Shown in pieces: positions 5,186-64,000 of a stretch of DNA of 64,000 nucleotides. The stretch is from positions 1-64,000 of the forward strand of contig JAIQEV010000008.1 of assembly GCA_020073585.1 (NCBI GenBank), read 5' to 3'. The stretch is from Terriglobia bacterium. Its GTDB lineage: Bacteria > Acidobacteriota > Terriglobia > Acidiferrales > UBA7541. A program made the position numbers and the translations under genes. Under the pieces are notes generated by a model that was not told the origin of the DNA, searched no databases, and worked only from the letters and a program-made list of their open reading frames with translations. Within the stretch, counting starts at the first letter, position 1, and each line of letters starts with the position of its first letter.

Positions 5186-7156
5186 CTACCCGGGGATAAT
5201 CCGCGGCGTCAGGAAGAAGAGCAGTTCCTGCGACTGCACCACGACGTTGGTGCGCTTGAACAGGTGCCCGATGACCGGCAGGCTGCCCACCAGCGGCACC
5301 TGCGTGACGTCCGTGCGCTGCTGCGTGATGATGATCCCGCCGATGACCACCGTGCCTCCGTCCGCCACCAGCACTTTGGTCTCCGCCGACTGCGTATTCA
5401 GCGCCGGGGTGCCCTGCACGCGCGGAATACCCGCATCAATCTGCGTATTTTCCACCACCACGTCCATGAACACCGTGCCTTCGGCCGTGACCAGCGGCGT
5501 CACCTCCAGCTTCAGCACTGCGTCGATGAACTGAATCGAAATCGTGTTGTTGACGGTGGTCTGAATCGGTATCTTCGTGCCTTGTTTGATGATCGCTTTT
5601 TCGTTGTTCTGGGTGATGATCTTCGGCTTCGAGAGCAGCTTGCCCACGCCCTTGGCTTCCGCCGCGCTGATGAAGAAATCCACCGCGAAGTTCGGAGAAC
5701 GGTGCCCGAAGAACATCCCGCTCGTCGGACCCACGGCCCCCAGGTTCACGTTGAAGGGCATCCCGCCCCCGGTGGACACGAGCGGCGGTGGAATCGGACT
5801 GGTCGTAATCGGGCTGACGCCGACGTTCTGGTTCCCGGCAAATAGCGTCCGGCCGCTCGTCGTCGTCCCCGCAAAACCCAGCTGCACGCCGATGTCCTGC
5901 GCAAACGAGCGCGAAGCGGAAACCACCCGCGCTTCAATTTCCACCTGCTGCGATTTCCGGTCCAGCTGCCGGATCAGATTGTCGATCACCGGTATCGTCG
6001 ACGGAATGTCGCGAATGATCAGCTGGTTGGAGCGGTCATCGGCCAGAATGTCGCCGCGCGAGCTGAGGAATTTCCGCAGCGTCCCCGTCAGCTTTTCGGC
6101 CTTCGCGTAGCTCAGCACGCGCGTCACGGTCACCGGGTCCACGGCTTCCTGCTGCGCCTTCTGCAGATCGCGCGAGACCTCCGCTTCTTTCTTTAACGCA
6201 TCGCGCGTGGCGATGCGCAGCACGTTGCCGGTGATCTGCTTGTCCAAGCTGTTGTTCTGCAGCACCAGGTCCAGCGCCTGATCCCACGGCACCTCATCCA
6301 GCACGATCGTCAGCGAACCCTTTACCGCCGGATCCAGTATCACGTTCAACCCGCTGATCTCGTGAATCAGCCGGAAGAAGTCGCGCAGGTCCACATCCTT
6401 CAGGTTCACCGAGATCGGCTCGCCTGTGTAGCGCGTCGCCGTCACCGCGGCTCCGCTCTCCTGCGCCGGGCGCGCCGGCATGCCCGGTCGCCCGCTCCAC
6501 GAGGCCAGCACCTGCGCGGGCTGCGTCAGTTCGCGCGGCAGTTGGAATTTCGGAGTGCTCACCGTCAGCTTCCGCTTTGCCGCCGTTGGGCGCGCCGCGC
6601 GCGGTGCCGCCGGCGCGTACCGGAAACTGCTGCGCCGCACTGCCGGCTGTTCCGCTGGTGCTGCCTTCGTCGTCAGATTCGCCGCATGCTCCTTGGCCGC
6701 TGGCCCGTCGCCCGCAAAGGACCCGCCCGCAAAGGAAATGACCAGTGCCGTGCCCTCATGGGTAATCTCATAGGGCGTCTCGGCGCTCAAGTCGATCACC
6801 ACCCGGGCCACGTCCCGCTTGTATTGCCCCAGGCGCACGCCACGGACCGGCGCCGGCGCTCCCGGCACATCCGTCCGGTGGTGCACGGCCAGCCGCGTGC
6901 CGCTAAAATCCAGTACCAGCCGCGGCGGGTTTTCCATGTGTGTCGCCAGGGCTTCGCGCAGGCCTTCACCCTCAACCCGCACACTCGCGCGCTCCCCCGT
7001 CTGCGTGACCGCCACGCTCGAAATCACCGCGGCCGCCGCGCTCCCCTGCGCTGCGCCGGCGGCCTTCTGGGCCTGCGCCGCCACGGAGCCCGTCAGCAGC
7101 GCCGTGCTTGCCAATAGCAGGCAGCCGCACCGAATGGCCGGCCAAGTCGTCTTCAT
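5186..7156 (-). CDS. pilQ: type IV pilus secretin PilQ
   Basis: This 656-residue protein is the outer-membrane channel through which the pilus emerges. An N-terminal signal segment is followed by an AMIN-like domain (about 45-140), a Pro/Ala-rich linker, secretin/STN repeats (INVNL-type ISVNLKDVDLRDFFRLI near 250) and an N1-type domain (VTRVLSYAKAEKLTGTLRKF). The C-terminal secretin domain has the VPLVGSLPVIGHLFK signature near the end and finishes LLFFLTPRIIPG. Its ATG overlaps the pilP stop by 4 bases (ATGA), so translation is coupled. It is the last pil gene of the cluster. Confidence 0.96.
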   Translation of the reverse strand: MKTTWPAIRCGCLLLASTALLTGSVAAQAQKAAGAAQGSAAAAVISSVAVTQTGERASVRVEGEGLREALATHMENPPRLVLDFSGTRLAVHHRTDVPGAPAPVRGVRLGQYKRDVARVVIDLSAETPYEITHEGTALVISFAGGSFAGDGPAAKEHAANLTTKAAPAEQPAVRRSSFRYAPAAPRAARPTAAKRKLTVSTPKFQLPRELTQPAQVLASWSGRPGMPARPAQESGAAVTATRYTGEPISVNLKDVDLRDFFRLIHEISGLNVILDPAVKGSLTIVLDEVPWDQALDLVLQNNSLDKQITGNVLRIATRDALKKEAEVSRDLQKAQQEAVDPVTVTRVLSYAKAEKLTGTLRKFLSSRGDILADDRSNQLIIRDIPSTIPVIDNLIRQLDRKSQQVEIEARVVSASRSFAQDIGVQLGFAGTTTSGRTLFAGNQNVGVSPITTSPIPPPLVSTGGGMPFNVNLGAVGPTSGMFFGHRSPNFAVDFFISAAEAKGVGKLLSKPKIITQNNEKAIIKQGTKIPIQTTVNNTISIQFIDAVLKLEVTPLVTAEGTVFMDVVVENTQIDAGIPRVQGTPALNTQSAETKVLVADGGTVVIGGIIITQQRTDVTQVPLVGSLPVIGHLFKRTNVVVQSQELLFFLTPRIIPG

Positions 7157-13791: not shown

Positions 13792-15111
13792 ATGAAGCGG
13801 ATATACATGGATTACAACGCCACCACGCCGGTCGAGGCGGGGGTGCTCGAGGCGATGCTGCCCTACTTCTCCGCGGAGTATGGGAATGCCGCGTCCATCC
13901 ACAGCTTTGGACAGAAGGCGCGGGCAGCGGTGGAGGCGGCGCGGGAAGCGGTGGCGGCGCTGATCGGGGCGCGGGCGCAGGAGATCGTCTTCACCAGCGG
14001 GGGGACGGAGTCGGACAACCACGCGATTTTCGGGATTGTCGCCGCGGTGAGCGGCGCCAGGAAGAATGTTGCGGCAAGCGGCGCCGGGAAGGATATTGCG
14101 GCGGGCAGCGGAGAACGAGATGCCGGGCTCCCGACCGGGTCGGGACAAGTTCCGCCCAGCGCTACACATGTAATCACTACCGCCGTCGAGCATGAGGCGG
14201 TGCTGAACGCTTGCCAGGCGCTGGAAAAGCAGGGCGTGGCGGTGACGTATCTGGCGGTGGACGGCGCGGGGCGCGTGGACCCCGAGGCGGTGCGGCGGGC
14301 GCTGCGGGCGGAGACGGCGCTGATCACCGTGATGCACGCCAACAACGAGCTGGGGACCGTCCAGCCGATCGAAGAGATTGGCAAGATCGCGGCCGAGGCG
14401 GATGTGTACTTCCATACGGACGCGGTGCAGAGCGCGGGCAAGATTGCGGTGGACGTGGAGCGGCTGGGCGTGGACCTGCTCTCGCTTTCGGGGCACAAAT
14501 TCTACGCGCCGAAGGGCGTGGGCGCGCTGTACATCCGGCGGGGGACGCGGCTGCGGCAGTTGCTCTATGGCGGACGGCACCAGCACGGCTTCCGTCCGGG
14601 GACGGAAAACGTGCCGGGGATTGTGGGGCTGGGCAAAGCGGCGGAGATGGCGCGCGCGGCGCTGGCGGAAGACGCGCGGCGGGTGGGCGCGCTGCGCGAC
14701 CGGCTGGAGCGCGGTCTGCTGGAGCGGGTGCCGCAGGCGCGCGTCAATGGTATGCATGACCGCAAAGCGGTCAATGGTATCGGTGGCCACGGGGGCGGCG
14801 GCGCGGCGCGCACACCGAACACGACGAACATTCTGTTTCCCGGCGTCGAGGGCGAGGCCCTGGTGATCGCGCTGGACCTCAAGGGGCTGGCGTGCTCGAC
14901 GGGGGCGGCGTGCTCGTCCGGGGCGGTGGAGCCGTCGCACGTGCTGACGGCGATCGGGTTGCCGGCGGGAGAGGCGCGGGCGAGTTTGCGGTTCAGCCTG
15001 GGGCGGCATACGACCGAGGCGGAAGTGGATTTCGCGCTGGAGGTGGTGCCGGGGGCGGTGGCGCAGTTGCGGGAGCTGTCGCCGGTGTATGGGAGAAAAG
15101 TTAACAGTTAA
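13792..15111 (+). CDS. cysteine desulfurase (NifS/IscS type) with in-frame insertions
   Basis: A PLP enzyme that takes sulfur from cysteine for Fe-S clusters or tRNA thiolation. Start ATG 13792 gives MKRIYMDYNATTPV, the standard N-terminus, and 439 residues against about 380-400 usual. The PLP lysine is in LSLSGHKFYAPKG and the catalytic cysteine in ACSTGAACSSGAVEPSH. Two insertions explain the extra length. One at about 14050-14165 holds a 27-base tandem repeat (SGARKNVAA, SGAGKDIAA) and a palindrome. The other at about 14744-14777 adds nine residues around HDRKAV, from a GACCGC palindrome. Catalytic motifs are intact. mnmA follows at once, suggesting a role in tRNA 2-thiolation. Confidence 0.9.
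   Translation: MKRIYMDYNATTPVEAGVLEAMLPYFSAEYGNAASIHSFGQKARAAVEAAREAVAALIGARAQEIVFTSGGTESDNHAIFGIVAAVSGARKNVAASGAGKDIAAGSGERDAGLPTGSGQVPPSATHVITTAVEHEAVLNACQALEKQGVAVTYLAVDGAGRVDPEAVRRALRAETALITVMHANNELGTVQPIEEIGKIAAEADVYFHTDAVQSAGKIAVDVERLGVDLLSLSGHKFYAPKGVGALYIRRGTRLRQLLYGGRHQHGFRPGTENVPGIVGLGKAAEMARAALAEDARRVGALRDRLERGLLERVPQARVNGMHDRKAVNGIGGHGGGGAARTPNTTNILFPGVEGEALVIALDLKGLACSTGAACSSGAVEPSHVLTAIGLPAGEARASLRFSLGRHTTEAEVDFALEVVPGAVAQLRELSPVYGRKVNS
14050..14145 (+). repeat. 27-base tandem duplication plus palindrome inside the desulfurase gene
   Basis: Two 27-base units (14050-14076 and 14077-14103), each starting AGCGGCGCC, differ at 5 positions. They are followed at 14129-14145 by TCCCGACCGGGTCGGGA, a near-perfect palindrome. 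All of it lies in frame inside the cysteine desulfurase gene, in a loop before the ITTAVEHEAV segment where homologues are short. Confidence 0.7.
14758..14772. repeat. GACCGC-AAA-GCGGTC palindrome inside the desulfurase gene
   Basis: A 15-base palindrome with 6-bp arms and a 3-base loop, the same sequence as copies at 17039 and 31087. It is flanked by an 11-base direct repeat, GTCAATGGTAT, at 14743-14753 and 14769-14779, as if 26-27 bases had been inserted with a duplication. Confidence 0.75.
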
Positions 15112-37815: not shown

Positions 37816-39006
37816 ATGGCGAAATTCGAGCGCATCTTCTGGATCGTGCTGGACAGCGCGGGGATCGGTCCGCTGCCGGACGCGGGCGAATACGGAGACA
37901 CAGGGCGCAGCACGCTCGGGCACATCGCGGAATCGCGGCCGCTGGCGCTGCCGCATCTGCTGCGCATGGGCCTCGGAAATATCGCGCCGCTGGCGCACCT
38001 GGCGCCGGCCAGCAAGCCGACGGCGGCCTTCGGCAAGGGCGCCACGCATTCCCCGGGAAAAGACACGACCACGGGACACTGGGAGATGGCCGGGGTGTGG
38101 CTGGAGCAGGCGTTTCCGGTCTATCCGCAGGGCTTCCCGCGCGAGCTGATCGCGGAGTTCGAGCGGCAGATCGGGCGGAAAACGATCGGGAACAAGCCGG
38201 CCTCGGGCACGGAGATCCTCAAGGAACTGGGGAACGAGCACGTGCGCACGGGCTTTCCGATCGTGTACACGTCGGGGGACAGCGTATTTCAGATCGCGGC
38301 GCACGAGGAGGTGATCCCCGTGGCCGAGCTGTACCGCATGTGCGAGATCGCGCGGAAGCTGCTGGACGGGCCGCACCGCGTGGGGCGGGTGATCGCGCGG
38401 CCGTTCAGCGGCACGAGCGGGGCGTATGCGCGCACGGCGCGGCGGCACGACTACGCCGTGGACCCGCCGCGGCCGATGCTGCTGGACGTGCTGGCGGAAC
38501 GCGGCGTGGCGGTCTTCGGGGTGGGCAAGATCCACGACATCTATAACGGGCGCGGGGTGGACGACTACGCCGCGACAGCGAGCAACGCCGACGGGATGGA
38601 AAAGCTGGGAGCGGCGCTGCGGGAACGCCCGGCGGGGCTGGTCTTCTGCAACCTGGTGGATTTCGACATGCTCTACGGGCACCGCAAGGATGTCGAAGGC
38701 TTCGCGCGCGCCCTCGAGGAATTCGACCTCTGGCTGGGCGGATTTCTGCAGGGCTTGCGCGGCTCGGACCTGCTGCTGCTGACCGCGGACCACGGCTGCG
38801 ACCCCGATCCGCGCTGGGAGACCACCGACCATTCGCGGGAGTATGTGCCCATCCTGGCCTATTCGCCCGGGGTGGCGGGCGGGGCGGCGCTGGGAACGCG
38901 GGCGACGCTGGCGGACATGGGCCAGAGCGTGGCGGAAAATTTCGGGGGGACGATCGCGCACGGAGTGAGTTTTCTGGGGGAGCTGGGAAGCGAAAAGCGG
39001 GCGTGA
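37816..39006 (+). CDS. deoB: phosphopentomutase DeoB
   Basis: DeoB interconverts ribose or deoxyribose 1-phosphate and 5-phosphate in nucleoside salvage. The 396-residue alkaline-phosphatase-fold protein has metal and phosphate motifs: WIVLDSAGIGPLPDA near 10, GKDTTTGHWEMAGV near 88 with the catalytic Thr, LVDFDMLYGHRKD near 290 and LTADHGCDPDPRWETTDHSRE near 325. ATG 37816 is preferred; ATG 37789 adds nine residues. It is divergent from the VTT gene. No deoA, deoC or deoD is nearby. Confidence 0.96.
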   Translation: MAKFERIFWIVLDSAGIGPLPDAGEYGDTGRSTLGHIAESRPLALPHLLRMGLGNIAPLAHLAPASKPTAAFGKGATHSPGKDTTTGHWEMAGVWLEQAFPVYPQGFPRELIAEFERQIGRKTIGNKPASGTEILKELGNEHVRTGFPIVYTSGDSVFQIAAHEEVIPVAELYRMCEIARKLLDGPHRVGRVIARPFSGTSGAYARTARRHDYAVDPPRPMLLDVLAERGVAVFGVGKIHDIYNGRGVDDYAATASNADGMEKLGAALRERPAGLVFCNLVDFDMLYGHRKDVEGFARALEEFDLWLGGFLQGLRGSDLLLLTADHGCDPDPRWETTDHSREYVPILAYSPGVAGGAALGTRATLADMGQSVAENFGGTIAHGVSFLGELGSEKRA

Positions 39007-57235: not shown

Positions 57236-58525
57236 ATGGTCAAGAAACCCGACTTTTACGGCTGGAAGCTGGTGGCCGCATTGTATTCCCTCGATTTCCT
57301 AAATATGGGCTTCCCGCTCTACGGCGGCGCTGTCATTCACACCTACATGGTGAAAGAGATTGCCATGAGCCGCAGCACCTTCGGCCTGGGCTTCACCCTC
57401 CTGAACCTGTTCATCGGTGTGCCTTCGATTGTCGTGGCCGCGGTCATCCTGCGCTGGGGCATCAAGGTGACCTTCGGGATCGGCTCCACGCTGATTCTCC
57501 TGGGCGCGGTCTGGTTGTCGTTCTTCGCCACGCGTCCCTGGCACTACCTGGTGAGTTTCGGGATCTTGATCGGCACCGGCATCAGCTTCGGCACCATCGT
57601 CCCCGCGGCCACCATTGTGACGCGCTGGTTCAAGCGCTACCGCGGAAGAGCCATGGCCATCACCCTGGGCGCCTCCGGCGCGGCAGGCTTTGTCGCCGCA
57701 CCCTTCATCAATCGGGTGCTGGCCGCGAATGGCGGCAACTGGCGGCAAGCCTGGCAGGTCGTGGCGGGCATCGCGGTGCTGTCCGCGCTCATCGCCTTTC
57801 TTTTTGTAAAGGAAAGACCGGAAGATCTCGGACAACTCGTGGATGGGCTGCCGGAAGAGGCCCTCGGCGCGCACGCTTCCGCGCAGAACGCCCTGGTCAC
57901 CAAGCATCCCTGGACCCCCTGGGAGGCCTACCAGACCCCGGCCTTCTGGTTGATTCTGGCCGGCGGGATCGGCTGCCAATTCCCGTTTTTCTTTTTCACC
58001 GCCCATTGGATTCTGCACTTGCGCGGCGCGGGCATTTCCCCCGCCGATGCGGCTTGGGCCATGGGGCTGTTCACCCTGGCCGGGATCGGCGGCCGTTTGA
58101 TCGGCGGGTGGATGATGGACAAAATGGCCGCGCGCTATGCGTTCATGATTGGCCTGTGCTGCTACGTGATCGGCTCGACCCTGGCGATGCGCGTCAATCC
58201 CCACGCGCTTCAGATCGCCTTCCTGGCCGCCATGTTTTACGGCATGGGCTTCGGGTGGACCTTCGTCTGCGCGAACACGGTCACCGGCCACTTTTACGGC
58301 CCCGCGGCCTTTCCCAAGGTGAATGGAATGATGCTGCTGGTGACGGGTCTGGTCTGTTCTCCCGCCGGAGTCATTGGCGGAAAACTATTCGACCGCTTCG
58401 GAAGCTATAAACTCGCCTTCGAACTCAATATCCTTCTCAGCCTGGTGGGGATCACTGCCCTGGCCTTCGCGACCATGCCGCGGCCCGCCACCCGCCTGCG
58501 CGCAGCGCAACCCGAGACAGCCTAA
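57236..58525 (+). CDS. MFS transporter, oxalate/formate antiporter (OFA)-like
   Basis: A 429-residue protein with twelve membrane segments: FYGWKLVAALYSLDFLNMGFPLYGG, SRSTFGLGFTLLNLFIGVPS, and FKRYRGRAMAITLGASGAAGF in the loop 2-3 and 4 region typical of OFA/monocarboxylate carriers. ATG 57236 has AAAGGGGAG. It follows the decarboxylase by 56 bases and probably imports its 2-oxo or aromatic acid substrate or a precursor. Confidence 0.88.
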   Translation: MVKKPDFYGWKLVAALYSLDFLNMGFPLYGGAVIHTYMVKEIAMSRSTFGLGFTLLNLFIGVPSIVVAAVILRWGIKVTFGIGSTLILLGAVWLSFFATRPWHYLVSFGILIGTGISFGTIVPAATIVTRWFKRYRGRAMAITLGASGAAGFVAAPFINRVLAANGGNWRQAWQVVAGIAVLSALIAFLFVKERPEDLGQLVDGLPEEALGAHASAQNALVTKHPWTPWEAYQTPAFWLILAGGIGCQFPFFFFTAHWILHLRGAGISPADAAWAMGLFTLAGIGGRLIGGWMMDKMAARYAFMIGLCCYVIGSTLAMRVNPHALQIAFLAAMFYGMGFGWTFVCANTVTGHFYGPAAFPKVNGMMLLVTGLVCSPAGVIGGKLFDRFGSYKLAFELNILLSLVGITALAFATMPRPATRLRAAQPETA

Positions 58526-58564
58526 TTCCCTGTCCGGCAAGAGCCCTCGAAGCACTGAGATTTC

Positions 58565-58597
58565 TGGAGCGGGCGATGGGAATCGAACCCACGTCCA
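58565..58597 (-). other. attachment site: 3' end of a tRNA gene, probably tRNA-Gly
   Basis: On the minus strand the T-arm GTGGG-TTCGATT-CCCAT, the acceptor strand CGCCCGC, discriminator T and CCA are all present, ending at 58565. There is no matching 5' acceptor GCGGGCG, D-arm or anticodon arm upstream, so this is a fragment. A GCGGGCG acceptor suggests tRNA-Gly. It lies 38 bases from the stop of a tyrosine integrase gene, the usual layout of an att site. Confidence 0.8.
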
Positions 58598-58635
58598 GCG
58601 ATCCGCAAGTGGTTGAATCTACTCACCATTCATCC

Positions 58636-59793
58636 TCAATTTGGGCGCATCTGGGCGCACAATTTTACGTCCGGACGAAGAATCTCGCCCACCCTGTCCA
58701 CTGCATCGCGCTGAGAATCGCCAATGATGTGGCTGTAAATCCCCAACGTGATTCGCGCATCCGAATGCCGCATCTGCTCTTTCGTGACCGTCGGATTCGC
58801 TCCTACGTCCATCAGCAAACTCGCGTGGCAGTGCCGAAATGCGTGCATGCCGGCGCGCTCGATCTTGAGCTTGTCGAGGACAGGCCAGAGGCCGTACTCG
58901 ACAACCTTGTTTGCAGCGTATGGCCTTCCGTTGCGGTTGAGGAAGAGAAAGCCCTCGGGGTTCGCCTTCCACGTCGCCAGATAGTCCTTCAGCAACGCGG
59001 CGAGTGCTTCCGCCATCGCTACGGGCGCCCGGCTCGCCTTGCTCTTCACCGTCTGCACCCGGCCGTACCACGCGGATCGCTGCACGTGAATCACGCGACG
59101 GTCCAAGTCAAGGTCTGCTTTTTGCAGTCCCATGACTTCCCCGGCGCGCAGTCCTGTCATCGCGGCGATTGCGAACATGGTGCGGTACGGCTCAGAAGCG
59201 AGCATGATGACCTTGCGCGCCTCTTCCCCGTTGAAGAATCTTGCCGATTTGCGAAGCTCATCCGAAGGCAGCGCCAGCTCGCTTGTCGTCACTGGCTGCG
59301 TGCAGTAACCCCACGACTTCGCCGTGCGCGTCATCGAACTGAGAGTGCCGAGGATGTTGAGCACGGTTTTGCGGGACACCTTTTGCGAAAGCAGTGTGAC
59401 GAAGTTTTGCTGCATCTGCGGCGTGAGTTCGTGGAGAAGAACTTTCCCCAGGTGTTTTCTGATGTACGTGCGGAGGTGGGATTCCACGGCCTTAACGCTG
59501 GATGGCTTTTGGTGCGTGAGCACCTGAGCCTCCCAGGCGTCTGCGAATTTCTCCACAGTGACGAACTTACTCGGGCGGTAATCGAAGGAATTGATTCTCG
59601 CGAGGATCGGATCGAGAAGACGCTGAGCGATACGCTTCGTCTTAAGCTCGGCGACTGTACCGAGCACCATCGAGCGCTCAACCCGAATTGTTTGCTCTCC
59701 CTGAATCACGTCCTCCCGCCACCGGCCAACGAACACCGGCGGATTCTTCCCACGAACAATTACCCTTCCCGCTTGGTGCCTGCGCCTTGCCAT
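58636..59793 (-). CDS. int: tyrosine recombinase integrase
   Basis: A 385-residue phage-type integrase. The catalytic set is visible: Arg in MTGLRAGEVMGL near 205, Lys in the following beta-hairpin (VKSKASRAPVA), HAFRH near 305, His in MRHSDARIT near 335 and the nucleophile Tyr in LGIYSH near 345. A SAM-like N-terminal core-binding domain covers about 65-160. ATG 59793 is preceded by AAGGTAG; a longer frame to 59913 is less likely. It should recombine the tRNA att site 38 bases from its stop. Confidence 0.93.
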   Translation of the reverse strand: MARRRHQAGRVIVRGKNPPVFVGRWREDVIQGEQTIRVERSMVLGTVAELKTKRIAQRLLDPILARINSFDYRPSKFVTVEKFADAWEAQVLTHQKPSSVKAVESHLRTYIRKHLGKVLLHELTPQMQQNFVTLLSQKVSRKTVLNILGTLSSMTRTAKSWGYCTQPVTTSELALPSDELRKSARFFNGEEARKVIMLASEPYRTMFAIAAMTGLRAGEVMGLQKADLDLDRRVIHVQRSAWYGRVQTVKSKASRAPVAMAEALAALLKDYLATWKANPEGFLFLNRNGRPYAANKVVEYGLWPVLDKLKIERAGMHAFRHCHASLLMDVGANPTVTKEQMRHSDARITLGIYSHIIGDSQRDAVDRVGEILRPDVKLCAQMRPN

Positions 59794-59918
59794 TGAGCTA
59801 CCTTCTTTGCTCGTTGACTCGGCTGTCCCTGCCGTCACGGTACACGCACTCATTCGGCGAAGCAACGATTCGCTTCCGTTGCCGGCAGGAACGATTTGGA
59901 GTGCGGTAGCCATCTGCT

Positions 59919-60704
59919 CTACGCGGATACCTCCACAGGCCGCAGTTCGGGCGGGATGCCGTCCATGTTTCCGGGCTTTGGATACTTCTGCAGGACGAAT
60001 TGCTTTTGGCGCTCCACCTCTTCCGGCGTTGGAGCTTTGCGCGCCTCGGACGGCCAGCGGTGAAGCACGGCTCTTTTCAGTGGCGCAGCTTCCTCGATAG
60101 CCTGCTGACGTTCTTCCGGTTTCGGTGCCGGGAGCTGCTTTGCCGGCTGCGCTGCGCGATTGAGTAACTTCCGCAGTTCTCCGCCGGTAAGCAGCCCGGC
60201 CAAGTCACCAGTCTTGCGCGAGCGGGATAGGTCTTCGATGAAAGCCTTCTTCCGCCAGCCAAGCTCTTCTTGCGAGCACTCTCGGAGAAAATGCACGCCG
60301 CCAGCCGCGCGAGCGGCGTGGTCTATCTCGGCCGGGAGTGATGGCGTACCACTAAAGCGAATGTCCGGGTGGACCCATTCGCAGCAGTAGTCGAGCAAGG
60401 CTTGCCACTCGTCCTCGAAGGCTCCTTGCTGCGCGGTTTCAATCTGAGCGCGGATCTCCGCTGGCGCCGGGAAGAATTTGCAGGTCTGCATTGCCCGCCG
60501 GCAAGCTGCGTCGAGCACGTCCGGCTCAAGGTCGGCCAGTGCTGACACCCATAAGTCCACGAAGCGCGGTCCACGGTCTGCGAGCCTAACGGAGAACAAT
60601 TCCGCAAACGTCGCGGCCCACTCGCGCGCCAGACGTTCAGTTTGGCTGGGGTGCTGGCCGCAATCCCGCTGCGACGAGATTGTCGAGAGTGCGCTGGTCT
60701 GCAC
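59919..60704 (-). CDS. phage replication protein, helicase-loader G39P-like
   Basis: A 261-residue protein. Its N-terminal part (ERLAREWAATFAELFSVRL, WVSALADLEPDVLDAACRRAM, FFPAPAEIRAQIE) follows the helical pattern of small phage helicase loader/inhibitor proteins such as G39P. The C-terminal half is charged and Pro-rich and ends YPKPGNMDGIPPELRPVEV. GTG 60704 with AAAGGAG 8 bases upstream is the clear start, although the frame is open to 60965. It overlaps the preceding replication gene by 68 bases. The assignment is by pattern only. Confidence 0.6.
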   Translation of the reverse strand: MQTSALSTISSQRDCGQHPSQTERLAREWAATFAELFSVRLADRGPRFVDLWVSALADLEPDVLDAACRRAMQTCKFFPAPAEIRAQIETAQQGAFEDEWQALLDYCCEWVHPDIRFSGTPSLPAEIDHAARAAGGVHFLRECSQEELGWRKKAFIEDLSRSRKTGDLAGLLTGGELRKLLNRAAQPAKQLPAPKPEERQQAIEEAAPLKRAVLHRWPSEARKAPTPEEVERQKQFVLQKYPKPGNMDGIPPELRPVEVSA

Positions 60705-61464
60705 TGATGTTCTCCTTTCGTCCCGCGTCCCTAAGCGGGCCTGCGATGAACGAATCGAAATGTCCGAGGAAGTACGTGAGTGAATCGCCTTGCTTGCGGG
60801 TGAAGTTTTCCGTCGAGTCGAGATAGTGGGCCCAGCGGAGCCGCCATTCTTCGAGCGGCACGACGGCGTGCTCTTTGAGGAACGCCTTGAGCGTTTTCCC
60901 TTCGCGGGCTCCCCAGGTCGGTGGCTGTCCGTGCTTGACGCGGTAGGCTTCATAGGCGAAGTCAAAGAAAGGCTTGTGCCGGGGATCGGCGGGTGGCGCG
61001 GTTTTCGCCGCAGGAGTTTTCATTTTTCTCTGTTCTCTATTCTCTATTCTCTTCTGAGAGGTCACATGCTCGCCCTTGTGCTCGCCCTCCTGCTCGCCAG
61101 AGAAGTACCGCAAATCGACGGGACTCGTTGAAGCTATTGCGTTTAACTGCTCGCCCTTGTGCTCGCCGTCCGTGATGAGAAATTTGTGCACCAGAATCGG
61201 GTAACAAGCATGCTTCCCGGGAGTAGGAAATCGCTTTGTGTAGTCGCCCCGGTCCAGCCGCTCGAGGAATCTGCGAGCCTTGCGCGGCGAGATCGTAAGC
61301 TCCCCGGCCAGTGCGCCCGCCGATCCGTTCCATACGCCCGTGCGGGTATCGGCCTGTGAGGTGATGTAGGCGTGGACGGCGCAATCCGCCAGAGACATAC
61401 GGCCATCGCGGATGTGCTCCCAAACGCCACGCCGCAATTGGAGAAAGCCTTTGTCTTTGCTCAC
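60637..61464 (-). CDS. phage replication initiator-like winged-helix protein
   Basis: A 275-residue protein. The N-terminal FLQLRRGVWEHIRDGRMSLADCAVHAYITSQA and LAGELTISPRKARRFLERL form a winged-helix domain as in phage replisome organisers. The middle is Glu/Lys-rich (GEQEGEHKGEH) and the C-terminal helical region (FFDFAYEAYRVKHGQPPTWGAREGKTLKAFLKEH) matches their accessory domain. The GTG start overlaps the upstream stop (GTGA). The repeated GEHKGE units near 98 and 122 are notable. Confidence 0.65.
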   Translation of the reverse strand: MSKDKGFLQLRRGVWEHIRDGRMSLADCAVHAYITSQADTRTGVWNGSAGALAGELTISPRKARRFLERLDRGDYTKRFPTPGKHACYPILVHKFLITDGEHKGEQLNAIASTSPVDLRYFSGEQEGEHKGEHVTSQKRIENREQRKMKTPAAKTAPPADPRHKPFFDFAYEAYRVKHGQPPTWGAREGKTLKAFLKEHAVVPLEEWRLRWAHYLDSTENFTRKQGDSLTYFLGHFDSFIAGPLRDAGRKENISADQRTLDNLVAAGLRPAPQPN

Positions 61465-61967
61465 GGCCGCACCCCCGCGAACAGAGGGCCGGCATCGGCG
61501 GGCGTAATCGGCTGGCCGTGGGCGTCAGTGGCGACACGCGGGCGCTGGTCCCACGGCTCGGCCTGGTTCTTTGCTTCGCGAATCTCGGCAATGATTGCCT
61601 CGTACTTCTCGGGTGAAATTGTCTTTGTGCTCGTGAATCCGGCCGCGCGGATGATGGCCCGGACCTGCTCCACGGCGACATGCCCGGCAGTAGCGATCGT
61701 CCAGAGCCGCGTCACCTGGGCTTCACTGATCCGCGGCGCAAACCGATACCAGGAATGAACTACGCCGGAGTCGTCGCGCTCGATTTTGTTTTCGATGTGG
61801 AAGTTTGAGCGGCGGAGCTCCAATATTCGAGCCCCGAACTGAGCGCAGCCGAGCGCGAGAATCTGCGGCAAGGGCACCCAGCTTCCGCGAGCGTCAATCA
61901 GTAGGCGCAAAATGCGAGCACGCTGTGTCTTGCTCTGCGGTGGAAGATCATTTACATTACGCGGCAT
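61461..61967 (-). CDS. helix-turn-helix protein of the integrated element
   Basis: A 168-residue protein with an N-terminal winged HTH: RARILRLLIDARGSWVPLPQILALGCAQFGARILELRRSNFHIEN, similar to small phage HTH domains. The C-terminal part (VTRLWTIATAGHVAVEQVRAIIRAAGFTS, YEAIIAEIREAKNQ) is helical. It probably binds DNA during replication or regulation. The ATG overlaps the preceding gene's end by 11 bases. Confidence 0.65.
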   Translation of the reverse strand: MPRNVNDLPPQSKTQRARILRLLIDARGSWVPLPQILALGCAQFGARILELRRSNFHIENKIERDDSGVVHSWYRFAPRISEAQVTRLWTIATAGHVAVEQVRAIIRAAGFTSTKTISPEKYEAIIAEIREAKNQAEPWDQRPRVATDAHGQPITPADAGPLFAGVRP

Positions 61968-62358
61968 TGCTTCTTCTCTCTTGGGCCGGTGAGCGCTCCA
62001 CGTTCCCCAACGTTCGCTTTCCGGCCTTTTCTTTTACACTTCGCACTTCGAAGCAGTCGGACTGCGCCAATCTTCGCGGACTAAAGGCGCGCGCAAATTG
62101 GCGGCGTCGAGTCTGATTCAAAATCTGCCGACGAGCCTCCGAACGAAATTCAACGGCGGCGGCTAGAAGCCTCTGAGTATGCGCATAGCGAAGAGGCTTG
62201 CCTTGGCTCGAAACGCACGGCCTGCCCACGCTCGCAAAACATCGTGGACACCGCGCATCGGTCGCTCGATACGGAAGCGCTGCTTTGGAATGTCTCTGGT
62301 TAGGAGCTTTCCGGATTGGTGATTGACAGTGAGAAGTGACTTCGTGTAGATTCTGCAC
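61957..62358 (-). CDS. small zinc-finger protein
   Basis: A 133-residue basic protein with a central zinc-binding pattern DARCPRCFASVGRPC near 33-47 followed by Gly and His (GKPLRYAHTQR). This module is found in small phage and actinobacterial proteins of unknown role. The GTG start at 62358 has GAAAGGA upstream. The long Arg-rich tail is of uncertain reality, so the start and tail are less sure than the finger. Confidence 0.55.
   Translation of the reverse strand: MQNLHEVTSHCQSPIRKAPNQRHSKAALPYRATDARCPRCFASVGRPCVSSQGKPLRYAHTQRLLAAAVEFRSEARRQILNQTRRRQFARAFSPRRLAQSDCFEVRSVKEKAGKRTLGNVERSPAQERRSNAA
62323..62352 (+). promoter_or_regulatory. plus-strand promoter for a candidate small RNA
   Basis: TTGACA (62323-62328), 18 bases, then TAGATT (62347-62352). 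All annotated genes here are on the other strand. Transcription would start near 62359 and meet a terminator at 62420-62450. Confidence 0.5.
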
Positions 62359-62450
62359 GTTGATGATTCCTTTCTAGTGGGCTTGCTTGCCTGCGCGCCC
62401 ACAAATTCGATTTGACCAAAGCCCCGGTCCTGCTGGGGCTTTTGGTTTTT
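62359..62450 (+). ncRNA. candidate small RNA antisense to the zinc-finger gene leader
   Basis: A promoter at 62323-62352 and an intrinsic terminator bound a transcript of about 90 bases with no ORF. The terminator stem is CCAAAGCCCC with GGGGCTTTTGG (62417-62445) followed by TTTTT. The RNA would be complementary to the leader of the minus-strand zinc-finger gene, including its GAAAGGA site. No family is recognised. Confidence 0.5.
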
Positions 62451-62459
62451 ACCAAGACT

Positions 62460-62687
62460 TTAAGTGTGTACGACCTCCGCCCTTGCGCTGGCCAAGACGC
62501 CCTCAATCCACGCAGAGCGGTCGCGGATGGCAGCGAGAAGCACCCGGCGCACGGCACTTTCCTCGTTCGCCGTCAATCGGATGTGGCCGTTCTCAACAAG
62601 AGAAAGCCGCGTGCGGTCGAGCCCAGCGCAATTTGCGGCTGCGAACTGGCTTAACCCCGAAGCCTCGCGAAGTGATTTCAAGTCCAT
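62460..62687 (-). CDS. XRE-family helix-turn-helix regulator
   Basis: A 75-residue protein with a clear XRE/Cro-type HTH: LKSLREASGLSQFAAANCAGLDRTRLSLVENGHIRL. A short helical C-terminus follows. ATG 62687 has a strong GGAGGAGGGG site; a longer open frame to 62741 is rejected. A palindrome overlapping the -10 at 62701-62724 suggests self-repression. It is a plausible element regulator. Confidence 0.82.
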   Translation of the reverse strand: MDLKSLREASGLSQFAAANCAGLDRTRLSLVENGHIRLTANEESAVRRVLLAAIRDRSAWIEGVLASARAEVVHT

Positions 62688-62700
62688 CAACCCCTCCTCC

Positions 62701-62724
62701 ATCACGCACCACAGCGTGATTGTA
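62701..62724 (-). promoter_or_regulatory. operator and -10 of the XRE regulator gene
   Basis: A perfect inverted repeat ATCACGC-N6-GCGTGAT (62701-62720) overlaps a -10-like TACAAT read on the minus strand (62724-62719), just upstream of the regulator's ribosome-binding site. The -35 is weak. The rest of the 62688-62868 gap shows nothing else clear. Confidence 0.5.
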
Positions 62725-62868
62725 CGAGATCGTTTTACCATGCAGACTTAACGACTCAGCGGTCCGACATGTGCAAATCGCCTGTGTTTATGCGGCTTTC
62801 TGTAATTCTAGTGCCATGCCAAGGAGGGGTCAGAAGCGGATAAATTGAGGGATTTTGCGTGCGCAGAT

Positions 62869-63762
62869 TTAATCTGTTGTTTTGCCCACGGCCTTGTGGC
62901 TCGCCGTACCTTCGGAGATCCTAGCGATGCGGCATGCGTAGTGGCGAGCGACAAATGCGGGGGTTAGAGGACCGGGGGTTGTCTTGGCCAAGTCTAAGAA
63001 AATCTCGCGCGGCACCAAATTGAACGGTCGAAACCTGTCCACCTGCCCCTGATGAAATCGGCTTTGAGTCAAAATGTTTAACTCCCGTCCGTGACATCCT
63101 AGAGCTTCCAGTTGAGAACGTATGGAATCTATGGTCTGAGATTCGCTCCAGGCGAGTAGTTCTACTCCCGCTAAACGGCGCAATTCTTTGTGGCGCTTAT
63201 TTTCTTCGTCTTGGAGCCTCTCCTCGTCTGCGTTTCCGGCAAAGCGGATATACCGAACTGTTGGCAAGGGCTGCAAGACGTAATCCCGCCAAAGTTTTCC
63301 CCTACTTACTGTCGGGCATGAAGCGCGCGCGACTCGAATAAACTGCCGCGCTTGGAGACACAGAGGCTTTAATGCTCTGTACCAATGTCTGTATACATCA
63401 CGGTCACTCGGAAGCAGGTCACGGCGCTCAAAGTCCTTGAGAATTTGATCTGCAACAACAGCAAAGCGGCGAATTTCAGTTAGTCGACCTACCAGCTCGT
63501 AGAACGAAGTATCGAGGTTCGAACGGTCGACATTCTCATCCAGGTAATCTTCGATGGCTTGCAGATCGCCCTTCAGAATGCGCTCGTAGAAAGGTCGGAA
63601 ACGAACATCCACGGGACTTCGCAGGGGATGCGAGGAAAATTCCCGTGCAATGAACCAGCCGTCTTCTTGAAGTACCCGCTTCTGCTCGGCTTTCGGAGGA
63701 CGGCCGCGACCAGGCTTGCTCTGCGCAGCGGAAGAAGTGCTATGATGCTTCCGACTCTTCAC
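62869..63762 (-). CDS. unknown protein with N-terminal AT-hook
   Basis: A 297-residue protein not recognised as any family. KPGRGRPPKAEQK at about 16-28 is a classical AT-hook for minor-groove DNA binding. The body is helical and charged (PFYERILKGDLQAIEDYLDE, FAVVADQILKDFERRDLLPSDRDVYRHWYRALKPLC, EENKRHKELRRLAG) without enzyme motifs. It starts with GTG 63762. It lies between two XRE-type genes in the element and may be a DNA-binding accessory protein. Confidence 0.65.
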   Translation of the reverse strand: MKSRKHHSTSSAAQSKPGRGRPPKAEQKRVLQEDGWFIAREFSSHPLRSPVDVRFRPFYERILKGDLQAIEDYLDENVDRSNLDTSFYELVGRLTEIRRFAVVADQILKDFERRDLLPSDRDVYRHWYRALKPLCLQARQFIRVARASCPTVSRGKLWRDYVLQPLPTVRYIRFAGNADEERLQDEENKRHKELRRLAGVELLAWSESQTIDSIRSQLEALGCHGRELNILTQSRFHQGQVDRFRPFNLVPREIFLDLAKTTPGPLTPAFVARHYACRIARISEGTASHKAVGKTTD

Positions 63763-63777
63763 AATCGTTGTACCTTC

Positions 63778-63804
63778 GCCCCGGTGCCAGCCGGGGCTTT
63801 TCTT
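63778..63804 (+). terminator. plus-strand intrinsic terminator
   Basis: GCCCCGG-TGCCAG-CCGGGGC followed by TTTTCTT. It is oriented for plus-strand transcripts although the flanking genes are on the minus strand. Its sequence is close to the terminator at 62420-62450. A TATGAT at about 63740 could start a short plus-strand transcript. Confidence 0.6.
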
Positions 63805-63810
63805 GAACCC

Positions 63811-64000
63811 TCACACCAGCGAGACTTCCAGTTCCAGCGTTGGTTTCTTTTGGGCGTGCAGCGATAGCGTGACGCCGCAGGCCGTGGCGATCTTCTCCAG
63901 CGTTTGCAGAGAATGCGCCGTGTACTCGGCATCTTCCAGGCGGGCGATCACAGATTGCGTCGTTCCGGCACGCTCGGCGAGCTGCACCTGGGAAAGTTTC
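63811..64000 (-). CDS. XRE-family HTH protein, HigA-like (5' end outside window)
   Basis: The last 63 codons of a minus-strand gene are present, ending with TGA at 63811. They read KLSQVQLAERAGTTQSVIARLEDAE then SLQTLEKIATACGVTLSLHAQKK, a standard XRE HTH as in HigA-type antitoxins or phage repressors. The gene continues beyond the window edge, where a toxin gene could lie. Confidence 0.85.
   Translation of the reverse strand, partial: KLSQVQLAERAGTTQSVIARLEDAEYTAHSLQTLEKIATACGVTLSLHAQKKPTLELEVSLV

Follow-up and report, generated by a model that had tools for sequence, protein, structure and literature searches.

A candidate cis-encoded antisense RNA gene of P22 Sar type at the start of a zinc-finger operon in an acidobacterial prophage-like element

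The window analysed here, a 64-kb stretch of DNA, is the start of a 93,988-bp contig from a genome of 4.03 Mb. From about 58.6 kb onward it is occupied by an integrative, prophage-like element. The genome is of the soil Acidobacteria type, a placement drawn from relatives of the element's integrase in Acidobacteria MAGs. The genes follow each other on the minus strand in the order HigB/HigA-like pair, 297-aa gene, XRE regulator, zinc-finger gene, winged-helix gene, 275-aa gene, phrog_9804 gene and tyrosine integrase (Table 1). The zinc-finger and winged-helix genes overlap by 11 nt and the winged-helix and 275-aa genes by 4 nt, and the zinc-finger, winged-helix and replication-type genes are probably translationally coupled. 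Judging from synteny with the related locus L182 and from weak family matches in sister elements, this is probably a replication operon. The 275-aa gene gave no domain match of its own in the domain search and its AlphaFold model was set aside (pLDDT 40), while the true start of the phrog_9804 gene is probably near 60650. The leftward run opens with a HigB gene (PF05973, Gp49-like) and a HigA-type antitoxin gene (63811-64000 and L002 3812-4536). The same element carries a second tyrosine recombinase and a serine resolvase (the latter recognised by eye) on the plus strand of L002 (5429-6778 and 7385-8020), followed by a DNA methyltransferase-like gene. Beside the integrase, at about 58565-58620 on the minus strand, a sequence ending in ...GGGTTCGATTCCCATCGCCCGCTCCA resembles a tRNA or tmRNA 3' end and is a likely attachment site; ARAGORN detected no complete gene there.

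Table 1. Positions of the genes and predicted elements of the locus in the window.
Feature	Position	Strand	Basis or remark
Tyrosine integrase, final gene of the leftward run	58636-59913	-	PF00589, E=5e-19
phrog_9804 operon gene	59919-60965	-	shares 43% identity over 143 aa with its positional counterpart in L182
275-aa gene, positional counterpart of the L182 DUF1376 gene	60637-61464	-	synteny with L182
Winged-helix gene, second in the presumed operon	61461-61967	-	phrog_4973; homologs in L027 and L028
Zinc-finger gene (133-aa phage zinc-binding protein), presumed target	61957-62358	-	PF24623, E=1.7e-8
Sigma-70-type promoter of the antisense RNA	62323-62352	+	TTGACA-18-TAGATT, within the first zinc-finger codons
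Predicted antisense RNA of about 89 nt with two hairpins, one at 62377-62402 and the terminator	62360-62448	+	fold; likeness to L023 and L182
CCTTTC, complement of the zinc-finger Shine-Dalgarno GAAAGG	62369-62374	+	sequence; CCTTTC also in L023 and L182
Intrinsic terminator, stem 62418-62442 and T-rich tail TTTTGGTTTTT	62418-62450	+	antisense to the operon
XRE/HTH regulator gene, directly upstream of the antisense unit	62460-62741	-	HTH_31
Second, weaker antisense unit, 50 nt, terminator 63778-63797	63754-63803	+	TTGCTC-19-TATGAT, extended TG

The original prediction placed a promoter and a strong terminator on the plus strand around some 90 bases devoid of ORFs, among genes of the minus strand, and this arrangement is borne out. 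The -35 (62323-62328) and -10 (62347-62352) hexamers agree with the consensus in 10 of 12 positions. Scored with a matrix of E. coli-type base frequencies, applied here to an acidobacterial host, the promoter reaches 12.27, which is rank 1 in the element and rank 4 on both strands of the entire window, and a value that none of 200 shuffles of the local sequence attained. It also beats the only other sigma-70-like site within 58000-64000. Transcription is predicted to start at about 62360, so that the start site proposed earlier (62359) is shifted by 1 nt. In the sense direction no good promoter was found in the region just upstream of the hairpin (best score 5.5). The fold predicted for the RNA has an energy of -38.7 kcal/mol (z = -4.55 relative to dinucleotide shuffles, 0 of 200 as good); the terminator stem has 11 pairs and -16.8 kcal/mol. 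Its predicted end at about 62448-62450 lies 10-12 nt before the XRE stop codon, and the stem itself is 18 nt away from it. Within the element part of the window, the only strong intrinsic terminators are this one and that of the second unit in Table 1, and a strict scan of all 64 kb added just three sites, each within called ORFs. The transcribed stretch contains no real ORF, its open frames being one ATG frame of four codons (62363-62377) and TTG-opened frames which run past the terminator. No Rfam family matched the window at gathering score.

The zinc-finger gene starts with GTG at 62358 and is preceded by the ribosome binding site (RBS) AGAAAGGA, which is mostly single-stranded in the predicted fold of the leader. 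The predicted antisense RNA spans both the RBS and the leader, with its CCTTTC facing the Shine-Dalgarno sequence. The earlier proposal, an RNA that would pair with this leader and RBS, is supported, also by the recurrence of the cassette with a different sequence in a homologous place of related elements.

Two such elements, L023 and L182, are distantly related left arms that have the same design at the same position: a promoter just within the gene, an RNA start near the start codon, CCTTTC in the 5' part, a hairpin and a terminator. The RNA lengths are 89 nt in the window, 85 nt in L023 and 81 nt in L182. In L023, which comes from a genome of the same genus, an XRE gene in the same place (32% identical to the window XRE) is followed by a small gene, more genes and an integrase, with the antisense design located between XRE gene and small gene. 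The small gene is similar to the C-terminal region of the window zinc-finger protein, at 56% over 27 aa, and on the antisense strand a TTGCGG-17-TATACT promoter leads to an RNA that starts 1 nt from the start codon and carries CCTTTC. L182 was held out, being found by a search for winged-helix relatives in 399 genomes of the class after the detector described below had been fixed. Its antisense promoter is TAGACA-17-TATACT and its RNA carries CCCTTTC, a hairpin and a terminator, facing the leader of a small gene; the start of that gene (GTGGCGAAGTATA) agrees with that of its L023 counterpart. The two small genes resemble each other (43% over 53 aa), and the tie of the L182 gene to the window zinc-finger gene runs solely via L023. 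Further downstream are a winged-helix gene, a DUF1376 gene, a phrog_9804 homolog (43%) and an integrase, while the XRE gene is divergent on the opposite side. The stems of the three RNAs differ in sequence and pairing is kept in all of them; because they share no sequence, alignment-based covariation is uninformative: when the three homologs were aligned with MAFFT for RNAalifold, the stems fell out of register.

For comparison with chance we scored antisense promoters at sites picked by their terminator alone, seven of which have a clear downstream start codon, against 201 gene starts from the same and sister loci. The mean score was 9.5 for the seven starts preceded by a hairpin and 4.8 for the controls (sd 1.76; Mann-Whitney p=5e-5, and likewise p=5e-5 with controls from the same element); 2.5% of control starts reached 8.5 and 0 of 201 reached 12.27. 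These values bear on the possibility that the hairpins are mere antisense-oriented terminators, guarding against stray antisense transcription, and that the promoters are there by chance. In its favour, the antisense strand carries the T-tract almost throughout, and at L172, L178 and L023 4396 (score 5.1) the promoter is poor or absent. The orientation of the strong intergenic terminators in these left arms, antisense to the operon with few exceptions, is counted in support of an antisense RNA gene. The promoter scores at the remaining sites are far above the 201 controls and the predicted RNA lengths fall into two clusters, 48-61 nt and 81-89 nt, so that we regard this explanation as improbable. 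Even less probable is a role of the hairpins in the sense mRNA, as leader structure or for RNA stability or RBS insulation, with no antisense function: several genes do have a hairpin immediately before their RBS, but the A-tract ahead of the hairpin, which is the antisense T-tract, and the antisense promoters would be left unexplained. Related genes in L079 and L081 have similar GCGGGCGC hairpins with antisense T-tracts immediately behind their stop codons (L079 reversed, 6082-6103 and 6600-6623; L081 reversed, 6972-6994), possibly a duplicated cassette.

A composite detector, combining promoter, a distance of 40-130 nt and terminator, yielded no match when run on 383 kb generated by a first-order Markov model. 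In about 1.1 Mb of acidobacterial DNA it returned mainly the antisense units described here and tRNA-Met genes adjacent to integrases, besides one host unit and one site within a gene. Under relaxed settings the positive control lambda OOP, with its known 5' end at 38,675, was the sole match in its lambda stretch. The strict detector fails to find P22 sar, probably because of the weak U-tail. Matches in L143 (within a long gene) and L147 (within a gene on the same strand) were discounted, and that at L030 5201-5254 (identical to L137 9200-9253) was not counted as an element unit since it lies in host DNA. The latter comprises 54 nt with a TTGACA-17-TACAGT promoter (score 13.5) downstream of a gene with a zinc-finger domain, and is a possible small RNA. 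The tRNA-Met genes are those of L079 (161-290), L084, L088, L089, L100 and L119, where the integrated element appears to provide the tRNA-Met terminator, right after the tRNA and antisense into the integrase gene.

Shorter units of 48-61 nt with a single hairpin also face gene starts, in L027, L072, L074 and at 63754-63803 of the window. The window unit faces the RBS and start of gene 62869-63762, the target in L027 is a winged-helix gene, L074 belongs to the window's own genome on a different contig, and the L072 unit directly precedes a replication gene resembling O (phrog_345, E=0.0016). The antisense unit is carried by a minority of integrase-linked loci. One of 21 held-out loci passes the strict detector with the window layout, three more combine a weaker promoter with a terminator on the antisense strand, and a further 573 kb of integrase-linked loci contained no unit. 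A DNA similarity search with the region gave chance-level matches only among 101 relatives, and no close relative of the exact locus was found among them for a test of purifying selection. Searches of viral contigs with the zinc-finger, XRE and winged-helix proteins returned no relatives, a winged-helix alignment search gave six contigs, none with a unit of window layout, and the integrase relatives L011-L013 are too short to show the left arm. The L081 unit sits in a leader and stops short of the RBS, which would fit a small RNA acting in trans and lying opposite the zinc-finger leader by coincidence. Most units contain the complement of the Shine-Dalgarno of their own downstream gene, and their sequences change along with the leaders, as cis-encoding requires; of all explanations weighed here, a trans-acting RNA is the least likely.

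Among known systems the window unit is closest in geometry to Sar of phage P22 (RF00262), an RNA of 68-70 nt with two hairpins that lies between arc, which encodes a DNA-binding regulator, and ant and blocks the ant RBS. In the P22 annotation sar runs from 15090 to 15021, with the ant start at 15091, the arc end at 15022 and the sar promoter within ant. In both cases the 5' end adjoins the downstream start codon (predicted offset -2 in the window, -1 in L023 and -2 for sar), the promoter is inside that gene, the RNA is complementary to the RBS and the terminator is located at the end of the upstream regulator gene. Unlike Sar, the window RNA is 89 nt long, resides in an acidobacterial element and faces a zinc-finger, replication-type operon instead of an antirepressor gene. 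The RF00262 covariance model scores P22 at 97.8 bits and has no match in the window or the element loci. We place the candidate among the phage cis-antisense RNAs directed at an RBS, a kind already known, and outside the Rfam sar family. The pO-oop-tO unit of lambda is comparable in layout, being a short antisense unit between an HTH regulator and replication genes, with its promoter within the start of the downstream gene; the replication genes of the window are probable ones, by synteny with L182. The similarity to antisense control of replication or lysogeny noted from the outset holds in the Sar geometry, in the OOP-like gene order and in an operon that is replication-like by synteny. Plasmid copy-number antisense RNAs (CopA, RNAI type) act on initiator or primer leaders of plasmids that replicate autonomously; for the window, the comparison goes as far as downstream genes that are replication-like by synteny. 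IS10 RNA-OUT acts at the start of a mobile-element gene; it differs from the window unit in element, structure and target. Ma and Simons 1990, a paper cited in PMC7968456, name its antisense block of ribosome binding in their title. A chromosomal antisense RNA overlapping the 5' UTR of the replication initiator gene dnaA in Bacillus subtilis is comparable by its description in PMC12112137. A type I toxin-antitoxin system was rejected, as a small hydrophobic toxin would be expected and the window target is a 133-aa zinc-binding protein.

The OOP likeness raises another explanation, in which the antisense promoter tunes transcription of the replication genes by head-on interference and the RNA is of little weight. 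In lambda, pO reportedly limits pR transcription into O-P by polymerase interference, oop RNA itself being of little importance (PMC3985674). The position between HTH and replication-type genes matches the lambda layout, which the detector finds, and the L072 unit right before an O-like gene points the same way. OOP, however, overlaps the 3' end of cII and has its 5' end 11 nt before the O start codon, outside the Shine-Dalgarno, whereas the window RNA ends before the XRE stop codon and covers the RBS. The geometry fits P22 Sar rather than OOP, which favours RBS pairing and leaves room for interference. RBS masking and promoter interference cannot be separated by sequence; we consider interference as the main function unlikely, though the strongest of the alternatives.

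An antisense RNA against the zinc-finger leader and RBS is the best supported reading, as both its promoter and its terminator are beyond what chance would give and related elements carry the cassette again in a different sequence. With a probability of roughly two thirds, on the evidence of sequence and comparison, 62323-62450 would be the gene for an antisense RNA that is encoded in cis, resembles P22 Sar in type and gates the zinc-finger operon. The RNA would be made from the near-consensus promoter in the plus direction and pair with the zinc-finger mRNA at its leader and GAAAGG Shine-Dalgarno, thereby blocking ribosome loading. The zinc finger, the winged helix, the replication-type gene and perhaps the integrase would then be kept off until sense transcription outruns the RNA, and head-on transcription may add repression. 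Given the gene overlaps, masking of the first RBS could restrain the later genes via translational coupling, and given a near-consensus antisense promoter and no good sense promoter found just upstream of the hairpin, the antisense RNA may exceed the mRNA in a quiet lysogen.

Those cis-antisense RNAs of temperate phages that are well studied, such as Sar and OOP, belong for the most part to a small number of enterobacterial phages, and our literature search of open-access papers retrieved no report of an RBS-masking phage antisense RNA in Acidobacteria. The Sar geometry with unrelated sequence in Acidobacteria suggests a convergent or widespread RBS-masking device between regulator and operon, and such units are detectable via architecture, not homology. 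A wider class in acidobacterial elements is a moderately supported hint. Tentatively, and with somewhat less than an even chance, Sar-type antisense RNAs of 48-61 or 81-89 nt may form a recurrent class in temperate elements of Acidobacteria, diverged in sequence and conserved in architecture. They would sit where regulatory and replication genes start, at times two or more to an element. If this is true, such antisense RNAs would add a general tier of control over lysogeny or replication.
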